64,000 nt of DNA. Source: Planctomicrobium piriforme. GTDB lineage: Bacteria > Planctomycetota > Planctomycetia > Planctomycetales > Planctomycetaceae. How positions within the stretch are numbered: the first letter of the stretch is position 1; every line of letters starts with the position of its first letter. This document shows positions 1-8,380 of this stretch, one piece after another. A model generated the notes under the pieces. That model saw only the letters and a program-made list of their open reading frames with translations. It was not told the origin of the DNA and did not search any database. The stretch is from assembly GCA_945860955.1 (NCBI GenBank), contig CAMATH010000032.1, positions 1-64,000 on the forward strand, read 5' to 3'. The translations under genes and the position numbers were made by a program.

Positions 1-141
1 TTCGAACCGGAACTGGGGCGCGTTGTGCGGTGGACTTCCGAGGCCACCCGCTTGCGAGCCGAAGCCGTTGAACTCGATGCCGAAGCGACAGCGACCGAGA
101 AGCAAGAGCGCGACGCGGCGGCGGCGCTGCTGGTTCCGTAG
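1..141 (+). CDS. C-terminal end of an unidentified protein (partial)
   Basis: The first frame is open from base 1 and ends at a TAG stop at 139-141, giving the last 46 residues of a protein that begins upstream of the window. The fragment is rich in Ala, Glu and Arg (for example RLRAEAVELDAEA and EKQERDAAAAL) and looks like an amphipathic helix or coiled coil. No family can be named from so short a tail. It lies in the stretch interpreted here as a mobile island, so it may belong to an accessory gene. Confidence 0.5.
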   Translation, partial: FEPELGRVVRWTSEATRLRAEAVELDAEATATEKQERDAAAALLVP

Positions 142-212
142 TCTCCCTCCCGCCCCCTGCCGGTGTGGTTTGTCCCTTTCCTTCACCGGTGGGCGAGCGG
201 GTCGCGAATTTC

Positions 213-326
213 GTTGTGGCAAATTTGCCACCACAAACCGACCTGCCCCCGCTGGCGATTCTGTTCCGCTGAATTCAACGGAACAAAACGACTGGTCAAT
301 TCTGTACGGGAAAACTTACCCGCACA
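213..326. promoter_or_regulatory. Three consecutive dyad-symmetric sites upstream of HTH gene
   Basis: The 330-base gap 142-471 holds no convincing gene but has three dyads in a row. The 16-base perfect palindrome GTGGCAAATTTGCCAC is at 216-231. A 24-base inverted repeat with arms TGTTCCG and CGGAACA and a TGAATTCA core is at 262-285, with one mismatched pair. A weaker 24-base dyad with TGTACGGG/CCCGCACA arms is at 303-326. Their centres lie about 50 and 41 bases apart. Such an array just upstream of a small HTH gene suggests operators, but this is inference from symmetry only. Confidence 0.35.
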
Positions 327-471
327 AAACCCGACCCGCCTTACGTTTTCGTGGCATTTCGCCCCGTCAGTCGGAAAAACGACGCACCAGGATGCCCGTA
401 GACGCGACGAACAGCCATTCCGAGACACAATCCCCGTCTGAATTTCCAGCCCCTCACAATCGATTCTGGGC

Positions 472-747
472 ATGACGCCACGGAAGAGAAAAGAACTCGA
501 CCCTGATTCCCGGGACGTTGGAATCCGGTTTGCGATTCACCTGCGGAAACTGATCGATGCCCGTGGAATGACCCCCGCAGACTTACATGCAAAGCTGGTG
601 GAGGGGGGAACCGAGGTCAGTATGGAACTGGTCAAAAAATGGTTGCGGGGCGATGGATTTCCGCGACCGAACGACCTGGAATCTCTGGGGAACGCTCTCG
701 ACATGAGAGACTACCGGTTTGTGCTTCCTGCGCCGGTCACCAAGTGA
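472..747 (+). CDS. Small helix-turn-helix (Xre-like) DNA-binding protein
   Basis: This 91-residue basic protein resembles a Cro/CI-type helix-turn-helix. After a charged N-terminus, residues about 18-80 read as a five-helix domain: FAIHLRKLIDARGMTPADLHAKL, then VSMELVKKWLRGDGFPRPNDLESLGNAL, where the segment MELVKKWLRG sits as the recognition helix and DLESLGNAL as helix 4. The length suits a stand-alone prophage or island regulator. It follows the dyad array at 213-326 and precedes other small genes of the putative island. No strong ribosome-binding site is seen, but the ATG is the only good start. The target and role are unknown. Confidence 0.6.
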   Translation: MTPRKRKELDPDSRDVGIRFAIHLRKLIDARGMTPADLHAKLVEGGTEVSMELVKKWLRGDGFPRPNDLESLGNALDMRDYRFVLPAPVTK

Positions 748-926
748 GTTGACTTTCCAAGCACGGAAACGTCCCTTTGTTTCGTCGTCGCGCTGGTCGG
801 TCGAGACTGAGCGACTCTCAACGAATCTGACCCCCGTTTTCTGACGTTGGCGTATTCTGCGCCCGGCGACTCGACCCGTCGTGTTGGAAAGCGGGGGTTT
901 TCGTTTCTCTGATGGGAGGTCGAGTT

Positions 927-1226
927 ATGACGAAGTGTATCGCGGCAATCGGAGTGGACAGCGACAACCGTCTTGAGCGGCGGGCGACGCTGGCGAGTGT
1001 GGTGACAGAAATCGAGGATGCGACGGGTGGCGTTCTGTTGATCGCGTTGCCGACTGTGGCACAGCTTGCGGCTGATCCCCGGGCGGTGATTCACGCGGCG
1101 GTGAACGATGACATTGGCACGCCGACAATCGATGACGATTTGCGGACATTCACATCCCAGGAACTGCGGGCGCTGGCGTCGCGGTTGCTGGAAGCGGCCG
1201 ACACGATCGACGGGATTCCTGCCTGA
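927..1226 (+). CDS. Hypothetical small protein
   Basis: A 99-residue protein of unknown function. The start at 927 is chosen because GGAGGT at 914-919 lies seven bases upstream; an in-frame ATG at 912 overlaps that site and is less likely. The N-terminal half looks like a beta-alpha-beta unit (CIAAIGVDSDN, then GGVLLIALPTVAQL) and the C-terminal half is predicted helical and acidic (FTSQELRALASRLLEAADTI). No catalytic motif or membrane segment is visible. It sits between two small DNA-binding-type genes in the putative island and may be part of the same module. Confidence 0.5.
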   Translation: MTKCIAAIGVDSDNRLERRATLASVVTEIEDATGGVLLIALPTVAQLAADPRAVIHAAVNDDIGTPTIDDDLRTFTSQELRALASRLLEAADTIDGIPA

Positions 1227-1301
1227 GTCACTGTCTCGTTCATTCCCCGGCGTTCGGCGTCGGGTTCAATTCATCCTGATTCAATTCTGAGAGGTTCAAC
1301 C

Positions 1302-1585
1302 ATGTCAGACAAATCGAACAAGGCGACCCCGCGACTCCCTGCCCAACGTGCGGAGCGCACAAGCCCCAGTCAATCGAAGGTGGCGCACCGTTGTATCTGG
1401 TGGAGACGGCGCGTGAGATTCTTGGCGTCAGTGAAACCCAGTGGAACAAATGGGTGTCGATGGAATTGAAAACGATTCCCGTTCCTGCATTGGGCAAGAC
1501 TTGGGTTCTTGGGAGCAACGTTTGCAGTTTCATGGAGAAGTTTGTCAAACGGCCTCTACCGGCTGGACAGTCGGAAGCCGCCTGA
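1302..1585 (+). pseudogene. Excisionase-like HTH protein, apparently frameshifted
   Basis: An ATG at 1302 with GAGAGG upstream opens a frame beginning MSDKSNKATP, but it turns into unlikely protein after about ten codons and stops at 1467-1469. The minus-one frame is open from 1280 to 1585 and carries the plausible remainder: CPTCGAHKPQSIEGG, then LYLVETAREILGVSETQWNKW and a short wing. That resembles the MerR/excisionase HTH family (the pattern of AAxxLGVSxxTVxxW). One extra C in the CCCC run at 1327-1330 would join both parts into a ~95-residue protein. Alternatively translation starts at TTG 1391, giving 64 residues. A sequencing error is as likely as a true mutation. Confidence 0.5.
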
Positions 1586-1604
1586 TCGGTCTGCGGTGGC
1601 GTCG

Positions 1605-1643
1605 CACCCGGGTGTATGGTGCAGCACATGCCCGGGTGTTTTC
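1605..1643 (+). terminator. Probable intrinsic terminator
   Basis: Arms CACCCGGG (1605-1612) and CCCGGGTG (1631-1638) form an 8-bp perfect stem with an 18-base loop, followed by TTTTCG. It lies 20 bases after the excisionase-like frame and would end plus-strand transcription of the small gene cluster. The long loop and short T-run lower confidence. Confidence 0.5.
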
Positions 1644-1755
1644 GCTTGTCTAATGACTCGCCTTATGACATTCCGACAATATTCCTAGGCGTTGCCACCT
1701 GACAGCGGTAGTGTAATGTGTAGCCTGACCAGGCTTTGCTGGCAATCACCATTTA

Positions 1756-2853
1756 TCAATCATCACTATCATCAATCTTCAACGCAAAACGATGTATCAT
1801 CTTATTGGTTCCTGCCGTCGTCAGCTTCCATGCGTCTATGACTTCGGGGACGCCATTAATTGTTCTTGGGTGTGTAATCTGAGTGCACTCAATCAGCCCG
1901 AGCGCAATAAACTGTATCCGAACATCTTGGGTCGTTTCCTCTGTTGGGCAGATGACATACGGACCGATGTCGTCGGCAGGGTCTTTGTAATCTCCGCTAT
2001 TCCTATGACTCTCGAACAATAATTTTGCAATATCGTACGCAATCAGCGATTCCGCACGTGGAAAAACGAGATCCTTTGCGATATTAAAGAACAGGTCATC
2101 GAGAGTAACGGTAGCCGCGACGATCCTGTCAGTGGGATCAGGGTCGATTTTGTCCAAGTCGATCGACGTCATCGCAGGGGCAGAAATTGAAAAGGTGAGT
2201 TCTACATATTCTTCTCCGTGAACATACTGCTCAGTCGGCTCTTTAGGGGAAGCATCGAGTTGTCTTTTCAATTCATCGCGTTCCGCTTCTAGGCGATCGT
2301 ACCGTTCCTGGAGAACAACCAAACGCTGCATCAACGCTTTGTTATCTATTCCGTCTGCGCGTACCCATCCGATCGCTGAAATATTGGGAATCTCCGTCGC
2401 CAAACTCGTGATTACCTTCACCTTGAGTTCTGCGGCGTTAGACCAATAATTGCAATGATGGTGTCGCTCGACCTTCTCGCGAAAGATGCTAAGCCGATCC
2501 CTGGCGGTCTTGTCTTTTTCAGATCGTCCAATTGGGATTGAATCTGGCGACTTATGCAAAAACGCGAATACCGGCTTGTTTTGAGCGATCGCGAAATCGT
2601 ATTCTCGCTCTGTGTAACTTACTCCGTCCTCAGCGGTTGACCCATATCGTCCGCCGATGATTAAAAGGTAGAAATCCGAGTCAATAATGACTCGTTCGAT
2701 GATATTCCAAGCGGCAAGGTGCGACGCGGGAAACATTTCCATTCCTGCCGGAAAATGCTTCATCGCCAAGATTGCGTCATGAACCTCGACTCGCTCGTCT
2801 TTCAAGTCGCTGTACGTTGAACTGATGAATACTTGATATCTGACTTCGGACAT
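1756..2853 (-). CDS. DUF4062 (TIR-like) domain protein
   Basis: This 365-residue protein starts with a DUF4062 domain at about residues 4-90: YQVFISSTYSDLKDERVEV, an ER-x-IIDSDFYLLIIGGRYGS strand, and SYTEREYDFA. As I recall, DUF4062 is a TIR/SEFIR-like fold that occurs N-terminally in signalling and defence proteins. A short coiled coil follows at about 185-210 (LQERYDRLEAERDELKRQL). The C-terminal ~150 residues look alpha/beta with a winged-helix-like end (WKLTTAGTNKM). The ATG at 2853 is preferred because the upstream in-frame extension to 3207 does not look like protein. The gene looks less GC-rich than its neighbours, which fits horizontal transfer. Function, and whether it is enzymatic, are unknown. 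Confidence 0.75.
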   Translation of the reverse strand: MSEVRYQVFISSTYSDLKDERVEVHDAILAMKHFPAGMEMFPASHLAAWNIIERVIIDSDFYLLIIGGRYGSTAEDGVSYTEREYDFAIAQNKPVFAFLHKSPDSIPIGRSEKDKTARDRLSIFREKVERHHHCNYWSNAAELKVKVITSLATEIPNISAIGWVRADGIDNKALMQRLVVLQERYDRLEAERDELKRQLDASPKEPTEQYVHGEEYVELTFSISAPAMTSIDLDKIDPDPTDRIVAATVTLDDLFFNIAKDLVFPRAESLIAYDIAKLLFESHRNSGDYKDPADDIGPYVICPTEETTQDVRIQFIALGLIECTQITHPRTINGVPEVIDAWKLTTAGTNKMIHRFALKIDDSDD

Positions 2854-3222
2854 CCTCTTGAGTCTCTTCGTTGGGTTCGGCGGCGACACTTCGGAACGAA
2901 TGGAGCTAATGGTATCATTTGGTCGAAATGGTTTCCAGTTTCGACCAATCTTTTCCCTCCAGCCCCGATCGTGATCACGACAACGGGAATTGTTGCATCC
3001 CACGAGCGTGCGGTTACTACCGCGAGCAGTGAATTCGCTAACGGCGTCGTAGACGCATCCCCTGAGCGGGCCACGCCGCCAAGATGGTCGTTGGCAACGG
3101 TAGATTGACTGACGATCCCCCCGATAGAATTCGCGGTTGCTGGTTGCGTTCCAAGTCAGCTCGGGAAGTGGCGGGAGATCGAGACAATTGCAAATCACTG
3201 GTTCCATTCGTCACAAGAGCGG
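2854..3222. other. Divergent intergenic region
   Basis: This 369-base stretch separates the minus-strand DUF4062 gene from the plus-strand HIRAN gene. It must hold both promoters. No convincing gene, tRNA or repeat was seen in it. Confidence 0.4.
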
Positions 3223-3744
3223 GTGCAACTGGCTGGCATGACTCACGATAACCCCGATGGCAGTTCACGACAGTCAATCTTGCGCCGGTTGATGCGGCAT
3301 CCCGAGGTCGAATTGGAACTGGTCCGCGACCCCCACAACCCGGTCGACCCGGACGCGATCGCGGTCTTTTGCCCATTCGGTCAGATCGGCTACCTTCCCG
3401 CAGACTGGGCGGCGGTCTGGTCGCCTGAGATCGACAGCGGCAGAATGCGGTACACCTGCGGTTATCGGTCGGTCGGATCATTCACTGCGGACGATGGCAG
3501 GGAGATAGTGACGGCACAAATCGACGTCGATCAATGGGAGTTGGATCCGAAGCCGCGCCGGTCGCAAACACAACCCCCGGAACATCGCCAGATACTCGCT
3601 ACCGCACCGACCGGACAATTCCGCGCGAGGCAGACCAGAAGCCGCCAGAGTAGCGGGAACAAGGTTATCCCGTTTGGAATTACGATTGTGTTGTTCGTGG
3701 CGGCGCTGCTCTTCAAAGACGCGATTCTCAAACTGTTCCGGTGA
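3223..3744 (+). CDS. HIRAN-domain protein with C-terminal membrane anchor
   Basis: Residues about 3-95 match the HIRAN domain: LAGMTHDNPDGSSRQSIL, then ELVRDPHNPVDPDAIAV and QIGYLPADWA, the usual spaced motifs. HIRAN domains bind DNA ends or modified and stalled-replication DNA and are found in SNF2 helicases and stand-alone bacterial proteins. A basic, proline-rich linker follows. The last ~25 residues are a hydrophobic helix (FGITIVLFVAALLF) ending in KLFR, so the protein is probably tail-anchored in the membrane, which is unusual for a DNA-binding domain. Total length is 173 residues from a GTG start; no in-frame ATG lies before the domain. It is divergent from the DUF4062 gene. Confidence 0.7.
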   Translation: MQLAGMTHDNPDGSSRQSILRRLMRHPEVELELVRDPHNPVDPDAIAVFCPFGQIGYLPADWAAVWSPEIDSGRMRYTCGYRSVGSFTADDGREIVTAQIDVDQWELDPKPRRSQTQPPEHRQILATAPTGQFRARQTRSRQSSGNKVIPFGITIVLFVAALLFKDAILKLFR

Positions 3745-3988
3745 AGCAGTCGCAAGCCGCAGATTGACGCCGACAGCCGACAGACCTGGACTCTGTACTG
3801 GCCACCTGGACGCCCACAATCTGGTGCGGTGGAATCCCCAAGAGACTCCCCGAGGATCGACTGGCGAACTGCCGGAAGTGTTCCGCGCTTCTTCGTTGCG
3901 TTCCGAGGATCGGACATCTAGTCTCTACGGAATGTCGCCGCGTTGACGGCGAACGACTTCTCACCTTTTGAATTGTGGAGTTTGCGGC

Positions 3989-4939
3989 ATGGCTGGAATT
4001 CATTCGTTGAGAGTCGCTGAAACACCGGTTGCGGTTATCGACTTTGAGACAACAGGACTTACCCCGGGATTTGACCGAGTCGTTGAAGTGTCGGTTGTTC
4101 GGATCGATCCCGGACAAAAACCACGGATTGTATTCGACACGCTCGTAAATCCGTCTCGTCGTATGGGGGCAACCGATATTCACGGAATCACGGATGCGGA
4201 CGTCGCCAACGCCCCCCGTTTTGAGGAGATCGCGGGCGAACTCCTGGACGCGACGAGAGGGTGCGTGATTTCGTCGTTCAATGTCTACTTCGACATCAAG
4301 TTTCTGAATTTCGAACTCGCTAATTCGGGCGTGAATCACTACCCACCGCACTTTTGCCTGATGTACCTGCGAACAATGCTGGGACTTGGACCGAGGTGCA
4401 GTCTCGAAAAGGCATGTCAAGCACGCGGAATCGACTTTTCCGCGTCACACGTCGCTGCAAACGACGCAATGGCGGCGGGGCAACTGTTCGTCGACTACCT
4501 TCCTGAGATCGCGAACCGTGGAGTTCGGACTTACGCCGATCTTGCGAATCTGAAGAGTTACAAATTCGTCGACAGCTTCTCATGTCTTCCGTTTCCCGGT
4601 CCGTCCGAGTTTGGACTGGAACGGTTCCGAAAATTCGTCTCTCGTCTCACATCATCGCCACCCGTCGACCCGATACGACATTCGATTTCCGCATACTGGG
4701 ACATCCTCAAAAGTGTACTGTCCGATTTGGAAATCACCGATGATGAACAAGCGGTTGCACTCGCTGAGCAGAAACGCGGCGGTCTGAATTCCGAACAGAT
4801 CCGCCTGCTCCACGTTCGAGCGTTTGCGAGTGTCATGTCGCAATTCTCAATCGACCAGAGGATTGACGACCGAGAAGCACGTAAGCTGCGGAAGCTGTAT
4901 CAGTGCCTGTCGAAATTGGGATGGGCCCCCGGCGAATAG
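3989..4939 (+). CDS. DEDDh 3'-5' exonuclease with TerB-like C-terminal domain
   Basis: This 316-residue protein has an N-terminal DnaQ/epsilon-type exonuclease domain (about 10-180). Exo I is VIDFETTG with D18 and E20; Exo II lies in SSFNVYFDIKFL; Exo III is HVAANDAMAAG with the H...D pair of the DEDDh class. The HGITDADV segment is also typical. The last ~90 residues (LEITDDEQAVALAEQ, LNSEQIRLLHVRAFASV, IDDREARKLRKLYQCLSKLG) read as a TerB-like all-helical domain. The ATG at 3989 is preferred over an in-frame TTG at 3968 because GGAG at 3977-3980 is well placed. It is the last gene before the tRNA-His fragment. It may process nucleic acid in repair or in a defence context. Confidence 0.8.
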   Translation: MAGIHSLRVAETPVAVIDFETTGLTPGFDRVVEVSVVRIDPGQKPRIVFDTLVNPSRRMGATDIHGITDADVANAPRFEEIAGELLDATRGCVISSFNVYFDIKFLNFELANSGVNHYPPHFCLMYLRTMLGLGPRCSLEKACQARGIDFSASHVAANDAMAAGQLFVDYLPEIANRGVRTYADLANLKSYKFVDSFSCLPFPGPSEFGLERFRKFVSRLTSSPPVDPIRHSISAYWDILKSVLSDLEITDDEQAVALAEQKRGGLNSEQIRLLHVRAFASVMSQFSIDQRIDDREARKLRKLYQCLSKLGWAPGE

Positions 4940-5103
4940 TTGCGTCGCCTTTTGTCGGGATCGACGTGCAGAACGCGCGGACAGAACTACCCCGAATTCT
5001 CCGGAAGCAATGCGAACTATTGCAGGGTAGTGGAAAGGGTAGTAGAATCCAGATGGAGAAATCCACTGGAAAATACGGTGTTTTCCAGCGATTGGGATCC
5101 TGT

Positions 5104-5145
5104 TTGTGGATCTGGGGGTCGCGGGTTCAAGTCCCGTCATCCACC
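5104..5145 (+). mobile_element. 3' half of tRNA-His: probable attachment-site remnant
   Basis: The bases from the anticodon loop to the discriminator of a tRNA are present without the 5' half. The loop TTGTGGA (5104-5110) has anticodon GTG (5106-5108). The variable loop is GGGTC, the T-arm is GCGGG-TTCAAGT-CCCGT (5121-5137), the acceptor strand is CATCCAC (5138-5144) and the discriminator is C (5145), a histidine-tRNA signature. The upstream ~35 bases contain no D-arm or matching 5' acceptor at the right distance. Tyrosine-recombinase elements often recombine in tRNA anticodon or T-loops and leave such copies, so this probably marks one boundary of an island. Confidence 0.65.
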
Positions 5146-5295
5146 CTTCGAAGTCGGCGCGTAACGTACACTCGCAGGCCCAACGGGGTGATTTCCGGGT
5201 GTTGTGGCAGGCATCTCCGCACTGGCGATTTGATCCCGGGGCAAATACGAGCTCGGGGCCACGAACGAGGCTGACTCCAGCCGACTTGTTGCGGG

Positions 5296-6186
5296 CTAAA
5301 CCACCCGGTTCTTCGCCACATTGATCAACGCCCGGGCCTGTTTGCCTGCCGCCACGACCATGTGGCCCATCTTGGGATGCTCTGGTTCGATATCGGGAGG
5401 GAGCCCCTCCGCGATCAGGGTTTCGGTCGCCGTCGGTCCGATGCTGACAACGACACAGCGCCGTGCGGCGGCGAGCCACGCTTCCCGTCCACCTTCCTCG
5501 CCCGCGATCTGGAGGACGTTCCGCAGTTGCTGGGCGCTGGTGAACATCAGGAGGTCAAAGTCACCGGCGATGGTGGATCGGACCGCATTTCGCAGCGGAG
5601 ATGTGTCGAGGGGCAATTCCCACCGATAGACCGGCACGGGGAGAACGGTTCCGCCGAGCGCGCGGAGTCCCGCATAGAGTTCTTCGTTCGGAATGCCATA
5701 TTCCTGGACGGCAATCTGCTTGCCGGCGAGGGGAATGGCCTGTTCCACCGCTCGCAACAGATCGCGCCAGGTGTTCGGTTCGGGAACCTGGATGTCGATG
5801 TTGACTTTCCACTCGCGCAGCACAACGGCCGGCTTGGGACCGCGGACGACGACCACCCGCTGATTGAGAGCGGAAATGACGTCCGAGAGTGCGTAGCGGG
5901 TCTGCAGGACGTCCGCGAGCGCCCTTGCCCCGACCCCAGTGAGAAAAACCACAATGTCGATGCCGCCGGACAGCAACCGCTCTCCAAACTCCAGCGCGAG
6001 GGGGTTGTCGGTGAGAGGAATCTCGCGCATGGACGGAGCGATCGTCGCGGTCCCGCCCATGCGTTCGATCAACGCCCGTAAATCGGCACCTTTCCGACTT
6101 TCGAAGGCGCAGACACGCAGGCCTGACAAGCCGTTTCCGGTTTCAGCAGGCGTCGGCGATGGGAGGGGGGGCGCTGGCTGGTTCAT
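5296..6186 (-). CDS. hemD: Uroporphyrinogen-III synthase
   Basis: The 296-residue protein matches the HemD fold: two alternating Rossmann-like lobes. Recognisable parts are LRVCAFESRKGADL near the N-terminus, IDIVVFLTGVGARAL, the central LPVPVYRWELP hinge segment, FDLLMFTSAQQLRNVL (the usual FTS motif) and VSIGPTATETLIAEGL near the end. It would cyclise hydroxymethylbilane to uroporphyrinogen III in haem and sirohaem synthesis in the cytoplasm. ATG 6186 is chosen over an upstream TTG because GAGG lies seven bases before it. A run of ten G/C pairs lies 17 bases upstream. No other haem gene is adjacent. Confidence 0.85.
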   Translation of the reverse strand: MNQPAPPLPSPTPAETGNGLSGLRVCAFESRKGADLRALIERMGGTATIAPSMREIPLTDNPLALEFGERLLSGGIDIVVFLTGVGARALADVLQTRYALSDVISALNQRVVVVRGPKPAVVLREWKVNIDIQVPEPNTWRDLLRAVEQAIPLAGKQIAVQEYGIPNEELYAGLRALGGTVLPVPVYRWELPLDTSPLRNAVRSTIAGDFDLLMFTSAQQLRNVLQIAGEEGGREAWLAAARRCVVVSIGPTATETLIAEGLPPDIEPEHPKMGHMVVAAGKQARALINVAKNRVV

Positions 6187-6202
6187 CAAACACCTCAACT
6201 TC

Positions 6203-6212: not shown

Positions 6213-6354
6213 CAGGAAATGGAAGCGACAGCCCGCTTAGAGGCTAAGTTGGGTGCAACGACCAGCGAGCGCAGCTTGTCGGACGTGTGGGCCTCTACGG
6301 TCACTGTGGTTGAGCGGCTCGGTGAGTGCGCACGACAGACGGACTGAATTTGAC

Positions 6355-6390
6355 AGGATGAAGAGGATGAATGGGATGAATGGGATGGAA
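6355..6390. repeat. Four tandem copies of a 9-base repeat
   Basis: The units AGGATGAAG, AGGATGAAT, GGGATGAAT and GGGATGGAA follow one another without spacing in the 440-base gap between hemD and the lipoprotein gene terminator. The gap otherwise holds no convincing gene. Confidence 0.75.
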
Positions 6391-6544
6391 TTGCTCGCTA
6401 TTCCGGCAGTCTGGGTTGAAGTATGTTGATGGAGGCGCTTTCTGACGGGCGCGGCTCCCCGAAATTGTTTTGATTCCGGCGGTGCGCGTATCAACGGGCA
6501 TTGCTATTGGAGTTCGGGGGATCCCAGCCCCGAAGCGCATCGTT

Positions 6545-7314: not shown

Positions 7315-7363
7315 TCAAACTCAGCAGAGCGTACGACACAATCCTGCGATGTCAGCCGACCGG

Positions 7364-8380
7364 TTAGTAATCAGCGACCGTCTGACCGTCAGCCCGACCG
7401 CCGAGCCGCTGGTAGGTGACGTGGTTGATATTCTCCGACAGGAAGCGAACTGTCGCGTCGGCAAACAGGAAGTGGGCACCGCCGGTGTGGTTCGACTTGA
7501 ACCCCCAACTGTAATTCCAGTTGTGCTTGGCCGTGCAGGCGGTGTTCGTGATCCTGCCGACCGAGACCTGATTACAGGTGGTCAGTTCATTGATCGGAGC
7601 GAGCGTCGACGAGTGCGCGTTCCCGAAGTTGTTGAAGTGCCACCAGCCACCACCCGTGTGGTCATGGCATTTTCCGAGCATTTCACCAACCATGATCACG
7701 TTCGACTGACCGTCCTGAATGTCGCTGATGTTGATCTCACAGGGAATTGCCCGCGAGAACAAACCCGAGGTGCTGTCCTTCGACCAACCACCGTGACCGG
7801 AGTTGCCGTGCGCCATGCCCTGTTGCATGAATTGCTGATACGGTTCACAGGCGGCACCACCGGCAGATGGTGTCGACTGAGATCCCATCGAGCCCGAGTA
7901 GCTCGATTGAGCGGCTTCGTTGTCCATCGCGAGCGAGTTGTCGCTGGGGCAGCGGGCGTACGGAACCTGGTGACGCCACCCGACGACGCCGTCAGCAAAG
8001 GGACGCTGATAGGCGTAGCCGTTGGTTCCATCGTACCACAGCCGCATGTTGAGCTGGTTGTACAGTGGGGTCTGATCGAGGAACGGCAGGACGCGCACCT
8101 GCCAACCGATCGCCGGGTGTACGTCCGTGACCCAGTTCCCAGTACCGCCGGGGCTGCGACTTCCGCCGTTGGGCAGATAGTTGTACACATCGTGGTAATT
8201 GTGGATCGCCAACCCGTACTGCTTCAGGTTGTTTTTGCACTGCGTACGGCGAGCGGCTTCGCGGGCCGACTGGACGGCCGGAAGCAACAGGGAGACAAGG
8301 ATTCCGATGATGGCAATGACGACGAGCAACTCAATCAACGTGAAGGCGCGACGCGACGTTCGCTTGGCAAGACACTTCAT
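7364..8380 (-). CDS. DUF1559 prepilin-like protein
   Basis: This 338-residue protein has the type IV prepilin/pseudopilin leader (RRAFTLIELLVVIAIIGIL, with cleavage expected before the Phe) followed by the SLLLPAVQSAREAARR helix and the DUF1559 domain. The C-terminus carries the family box HTGGAHFLFADATVRFL. DUF1559 proteins are a large planctomycete-specific group, exported and probably cell-surface, with no established biochemical function. An AAGGAG box eight bases before ATG 8380 fixes the start. A hairpin plus T-run lies in the leader (8421-8443) and a strong terminator follows the gene, so it is probably a single transcription unit. Confidence 0.92.
   Translation of the reverse strand: MKCLAKRTSRRAFTLIELLVVIAIIGILVSLLLPAVQSAREAARRTQCKNNLKQYGLAIHNYHDVYNYLPNGGSRSPGGTGNWVTDVHPAIGWQVRVLPFLDQTPLYNQLNMRLWYDGTNGYAYQRPFADGVVGWRHQVPYARCPSDNSLAMDNEAAQSSYSGSMGSQSTPSAGGAACEPYQQFMQQGMAHGNSGHGGWSKDSTSGLFSRAIPCEINISDIQDGQSNVIMVGEMLGKCHDHTGGGWWHFNNFGNAHSSTLAPINELTTCNQVSVGRITNTACTAKHNWNYSWGFKSNHTGGAHFLFADATVRFLSENINHVTYQRLGGRADGQTVADY

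Follow-up and report, generated by a model that had tools for sequence, protein, structure and literature searches.

Positions 1-5150 of the DNA analyzed here are very probably the attR-proximal end of an integrative element that a tyrosine recombinase put into a tRNA-His gene. The window, meaning the whole stretch of 64,000 nucleotides, takes up the start of a 67,218-bp contig (G000:C32:1-64000) in an assembly of 8.4 Mb and 282 contigs. As it begins at base 1 of the contig, nothing upstream is linked to it, and a search of its own genome found no contig overlapping the window start. The preliminary description had reported a 42-base 3' half of tRNA-His at positions 5104-5145, starting in the anticodon loop and lacking a 5' half, and both the coordinates and the description hold: the segment reads from the anticodon loop (TTGTGG...) to the 3' end. 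Neither ARAGORN nor Rfam calls a tRNA at 5104-5145, and it is therefore a fragment only. When the genome was searched with window positions 5060-5170, one other strong match was found genome-wide, at C53:1079-1125, where window positions 5104-5150 align to C53:1125-1079 at 47/47 bases (E 1e-17). This exact 47-bp repeat begins at tRNA position 33 and runs past the tRNA, taking in the 3' part at 5104-5145 and then the first bases behind the gene; together with the tRNA call on C53, it marks 5104-5150 (plus strand) as the putative attR core. Because the match lies at this E value inside an intact tRNA-His(GTG), the 3' part in the window is, judged from the alignment, not due to chance.

The two partners to be expected of such an element, an intact tRNA-His and an integrase gene, had been named in the preliminary description as things to look for, and both are present on contig C53. 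ARAGORN calls the intact tRNA-His(GTG) at C53:1083-1157 on the minus strand, and a tyrosine-recombinase gene follows 208 bp behind it in the same direction. Its open reading frame covers at least 291 amino acids and runs off the contig end, such that the first 291 amino acids are in hand and the C-terminal catalytic part lies beyond the contig. The partial protein matches a PHROG integrase (E 1e-20). Its truncation makes for only a weak match to Pfam Phage_integrase (E 1e-4), a family that the full-length homologue at locus L126 matches at E 2e-18. A search of the window's own genome, run without a positive control, found neither the C-terminal part of the integrase nor the middle of the element. 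The location of attL and attR on different contigs, with a gap between C53:1 and C32:1, speaks against a one-element reading.

Paired arm-like sites tie the two contig ends together without the missing middle. The pattern of paired 8-bp sites, ACTACCCT-N4-ACTACCCT, has exactly two exact matches in the 8.4-Mb assembly, and the reversed control pattern has none in the whole genome. One pair lies inside each element end, inverted about the core: ACTACCCTTTCCACTACCCT at window positions 5024-5043 (minus strand), 60 bp before the core, and its partner at C53:981-1000, 78 bp behind the core. This layout is that expected of paired integrase arm sites, and arm binding by the integrase is probable from the pattern. 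The 47-bp repeat, the integrase beside the intact tRNA-His, and the arm pairs found only at these two places therefore place attR in the window and attL on C53, as the two ends of one element whose middle is missing. In this way both partners and the arm-like sites lend support to the earlier proposal of a tyrosine-recombinase element using tRNA-His. The same observations bear on a copy of the tRNA end made by chance or gene conversion, with no element involved. Ends of tRNA genes do recur in genomes, but the match at E 1e-17 extends past the tRNA and base counting predicts the arm pattern well under 0.01 times in 8.4 Mb, making such an origin exceedingly improbable.

Overlapping the arm sites at 5020-5048 (plus strand) is a sigma70-like promoter, TTGCAG-17-TAGAAT, which faces the core (P 0.013 by shuffling). 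Mapped relatives carry promoter-like sites 48 to 64 bp before the core, several of them weak and that of L166 no better than in shuffled sequence; no comparable excess was found in the opposite direction in the window and the mapped relatives. A stricter consensus scan called no promoter at 5020-5048, and for this reason a promoter switch, in which this site would drive the integrase after circularization, is only a proposal, for and against which we see about equal grounds. Between the promoter and the core, an 8-bp inverted repeat (CTGGAAAA..TTTTCCAG) can be read at 5066-5088 (plus strand), and a similar stretch lies upstream of the tRNA half at locus L158 in genome G047.

When 398 genomes of the class were searched, 209 proved to hold homologues of the integrase (E ≤ 1e-30). 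The integrase usually starts 109 to 182 bp behind a tRNA gene or tRNA 3' half in the sampled loci, and the isotypes used include Ile, Pro, Asn, Val, Arg, Lys, Ala, Phe, and Met, among others. In an independent set of 27 named loci, all from Planctomycetota, the integrase lies behind an intact tRNA in 24 cases and behind a tRNA half in 2. Seven relatives could be delimited by repeats of 39 to 47 bp starting at tRNA positions 30 to 34, with elements of 10.3 to 17.7 kb, and the repeat in the window, with its start at position 33, has the same geometry. Related elements have in common the integrase and a small DUF1580-type protein, and individual ones also encode a D5-type primase-helicase, a DnaB-like helicase, a family A polymerase, or a type IIG restriction-methylation protein. 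DUF1580 (PF07618) proteins lie behind the integrase at L180:3526-3789, L166:4261-4683, and L162:16203-16586 (the last just below the cutoff) and are possibly the excisionase or AlpA-like partner of these elements. Rfam finds the int-alpA RNA at L162:17156-17224 (minus strand), directly behind the integrase and followed by the DUF1580-like gene, and at L166:14523-14594 (plus strand), outside the mapped element and near a second copy of the leader described below; it has no match in the window or in the start of C53. The window genome also holds a decayed integrase N-terminal domain behind a tRNA-Gln(CTG) (L097:18521-18787, equivalent to G000:C132:22203-22367), the remnant of a second element. 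Another planctomycete, genome G019, has at locus L175 an intact tRNA-His together with a tRNA-His 3' part displaced by 2.8 kb (about 4582-4657 and 7359-7409), and no copy of the window-type integrase was found in this locus. A literature search of limited extent turned up no paper on these planctomycete elements.

Most relatives carry a sequence of approximately 56 nucleotides between the tRNA end and the integrase gene that is predicted to fold into a three-way junction. Examples are L177:1363-1418, L154:1374-1429, L173:18580-18635, and L188:18584-18639 (the latter two on the minus strand), together with others. RNAalifold returned only one helix in each of two runs, in the first because MAFFT had misaligned the outer stems, and the structure was derived instead by way of a named structure and a covariance model. 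This model, built from 11 loci, has 48 matches in 930 kb; besides the one second copy in L166 (position 12691), they fall between the integrase and the tRNA or tRNA half in front of it. Among named loci kept out of model building, 17 show the motif immediately in front of the integrase (E < 0.05). All 14 base pairs show changes on both sides (37 distinct rows), and the covariation score is 0.553 versus 0.157 ± 0.016 for shuffled alignments and at most 0.098 when the structure is slid; these values are somewhat inflated because the alignment was fitted to the structure, and a seed alignment made with MAFFT only gives the same picture. The motif is unmatched in Rfam, which found only tRNA and int-alpA in the loci that carry it. 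Within the window genome, the gap between tRNA and integrase on C53 has no match to the model, and a weak, degenerate copy lies behind the tRNA-Gln (10.3 bits). We lean toward the view that, throughout the Planctomycetota, a conserved three-way junction stands in front of integrases of this family; it may be an undescribed RNA leader attenuating read-through from the tRNA or a DNA fold of attP. What was unexpected in the result is how widely this integrase family is spread among planctomycetes, together with its conserved leader.

On the chromosomal side, the preliminary description had core genes beginning right after the tRNA half. The hemD gene does follow the att core (5296-6198, minus strand, E 1.8e-34), but that wording hides a rearrangement: in no relative examined does hemD stand beside tRNA-His. 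Therefore, either the right flank was rearranged or attR is where two tandem copies once met. With flanking genes named from reading their translations, the order PfkB-tRNA-His is kept in genomes G002 and G003, and hemD neighbors ferredoxin-Mrp in G002 and yraN-rplS-trmD in G003; in the window genome, ferredoxin-Mrp is on C84, beside kdsB-pyrG-truB. An attempt to demonstrate an empty site from hemD synteny did not succeed, since relatives differ in their gene order around hemD and tRNA-His. No clean empty site was seen among the relatives compared, and this, like the position of hemD, counts against the element reading. In G002, the initial ~18 bp behind tRNA-His are identical to those on the element side of attL (CTTCGCTGTAA.CACTTC), and as a result the site looks like an old element end and not a clean empty site. 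The observation that the preliminary description had set against the tRNA-His element, an intact tRNA-His with no integrase nearby and the same gene order in all relatives, was not made. Near hemD, at 6306-6404, the window also contains short repeats that recur at dozens of places on many contigs of the genome.

A tandem array would explain why hemD adjacency is not common to relatives: 5104-5150 would be its inner junction, and 5151-5295 would be what is left of another element's decayed integrase-proximal end, which a deletion joined to hemD. Tandem copies are known from relatives, such as L166 with its second leader copy, and the window genome has the decayed integrase start behind tRNA-Gln on C132. 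Against this, the leader model has no match at 5151-5295 (the best score in 5080-5320 is 2.4 bits) and no integrase remnant is seen there, and we consider a tandem origin unlikely. The rearranged right flank, like an integrase end that is not readable in the assembly, would also suit an old, immobile remnant, with the tRNA half as a fossil and the neighboring genes as ordinary chromosome. The 47-bp identity, the identical arm sites, and an integrase frame open for 291 amino acids point instead to a recent insertion, and a fossil is very doubtful. The single element with its attR in the window and its attL on C53 remains our preferred reading.

The sequence leading up to attR would then be cargo of the element. 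It opens with the C-terminal 46 amino acids of a gene that is truncated where the contig begins (1-141, plus strand; no family match), a small Cro/C1-like HTH protein (472-747, plus strand), and an open reading frame to which the Pfam search assigned no family (924-1226, plus strand). Next are a small frame that looks HTH-like by eye (1391-1585, plus strand), a 365-amino-acid DUF4062 protein (1756-2853, minus strand; DUF4062 E 1.6e-26, PHROG 15411 E 1.9e-75), a HIRAN-domain protein with a C-terminal hydrophobic segment (3223-3744, plus strand; E 4.8e-10), and, as the last gene before attR, a DEDDh (DnaQ-like) exonuclease (3989-4939, plus strand; RNase_T E 7e-23). Profiles thus confirmed the earlier calls of DUF4062, HIRAN, exonuclease, and hemD genes, and that of the HTH gene at 472-747 is weak and below the cutoff (HTH_31 E 8e-4). 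The frame at 1391-1585 had been called excisionase-like, a label that we reject: it has no normal start codon, matches no family in Pfam, PADLOC, or PHROGs, and does not resemble the DUF1580 gene of the relatives. The exonuclease matches the candidate defense family PDC-S48 over nearly the whole protein (E 2.6e-59), and phage records yielded only part-length homologues, both for this exonuclease and for the DUF4062 protein. No prophage structural or lysis genes were found among the ~6.2 kb available. An anti-phage role is a plausible candidate function for this cargo. PADLOC, applied to ten large cargo proteins of relatives, matched two, both from L167 (the type IIG restriction-methylation protein and, partially, the family A polymerase), and with matches in only two of ten proteins we make no general claim of a defense island.

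Insertion would have proceeded by recombinase strand exchange within the tRNA-His 3' part, from the anticodon loop onward. The element's own copy of the tRNA 3' part would have restored the gene on C53 (attL) and displaced the original 3' part to window positions 5104-5150 (attR), with the inverted arm pairs, 60 bp (attR) and 78 bp (attL) from the core, bound by the N-terminal domain of the integrase. Both att copies, the start of the integrase, the unique arm-like sites, and the association of the family with tRNA genes are directly observed; from them we infer that the element is, or was, active in recombination. While the element is inserted, transcription of the integrase gene, which lies codirectionally 208 bp behind tRNA-His, probably starts at the tRNA promoter, and after excision the promoter at 5020-5048 would be joined to the integrase and could drive reintegration. 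A half tRNA at a contig edge has in this way become a mapped element end, linked to a family of integrases that roughly half of the class genomes sampled carry. Should the leader prove functional, it would provide a control device for island excision that can be put to the test, in a phylum for which genetic models are scarce.

The island in the window belongs to a well-known kind, the tRNA-targeted islands, in which a regenerated tRNA gene and a displaced 3' fragment mark the ends and the integrase lies beside the regenerated tRNA, as described for Islander (PMC4383910). An intact tRNA gene and a displaced 3' fragment are present in the same genome here, with a tyrosine integrase beside one end, and the element is like Islander islands in all three respects; it differs in that its two ends are on two contigs. 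As in int-alpA elements (RF02996), the related L162 element has the int-alpA RNA directly behind its integrase, whereas the leader described here stands in front of the integrase and is a different motif. The closest parallel in regulation may be ICEKp1, in which the inserted integrase gene is read from the tRNA promoter and attenuated by stem-loops in its 5' untranslated region, and control passes after excision to a promoter at the far end (PMC13023037). Like ICEKp1, these elements have a codirectional integrase about 160 to 200 bp behind the tRNA, a predicted structured integrase 5' untranslated region, and a candidate promoter at the far end that faces the att junction. Unlike ICEKp1, the window element has a planctomycete host and shows no conjugation genes in the available sequence, and the leader of its planctomycete relatives is a conserved three-way junction.
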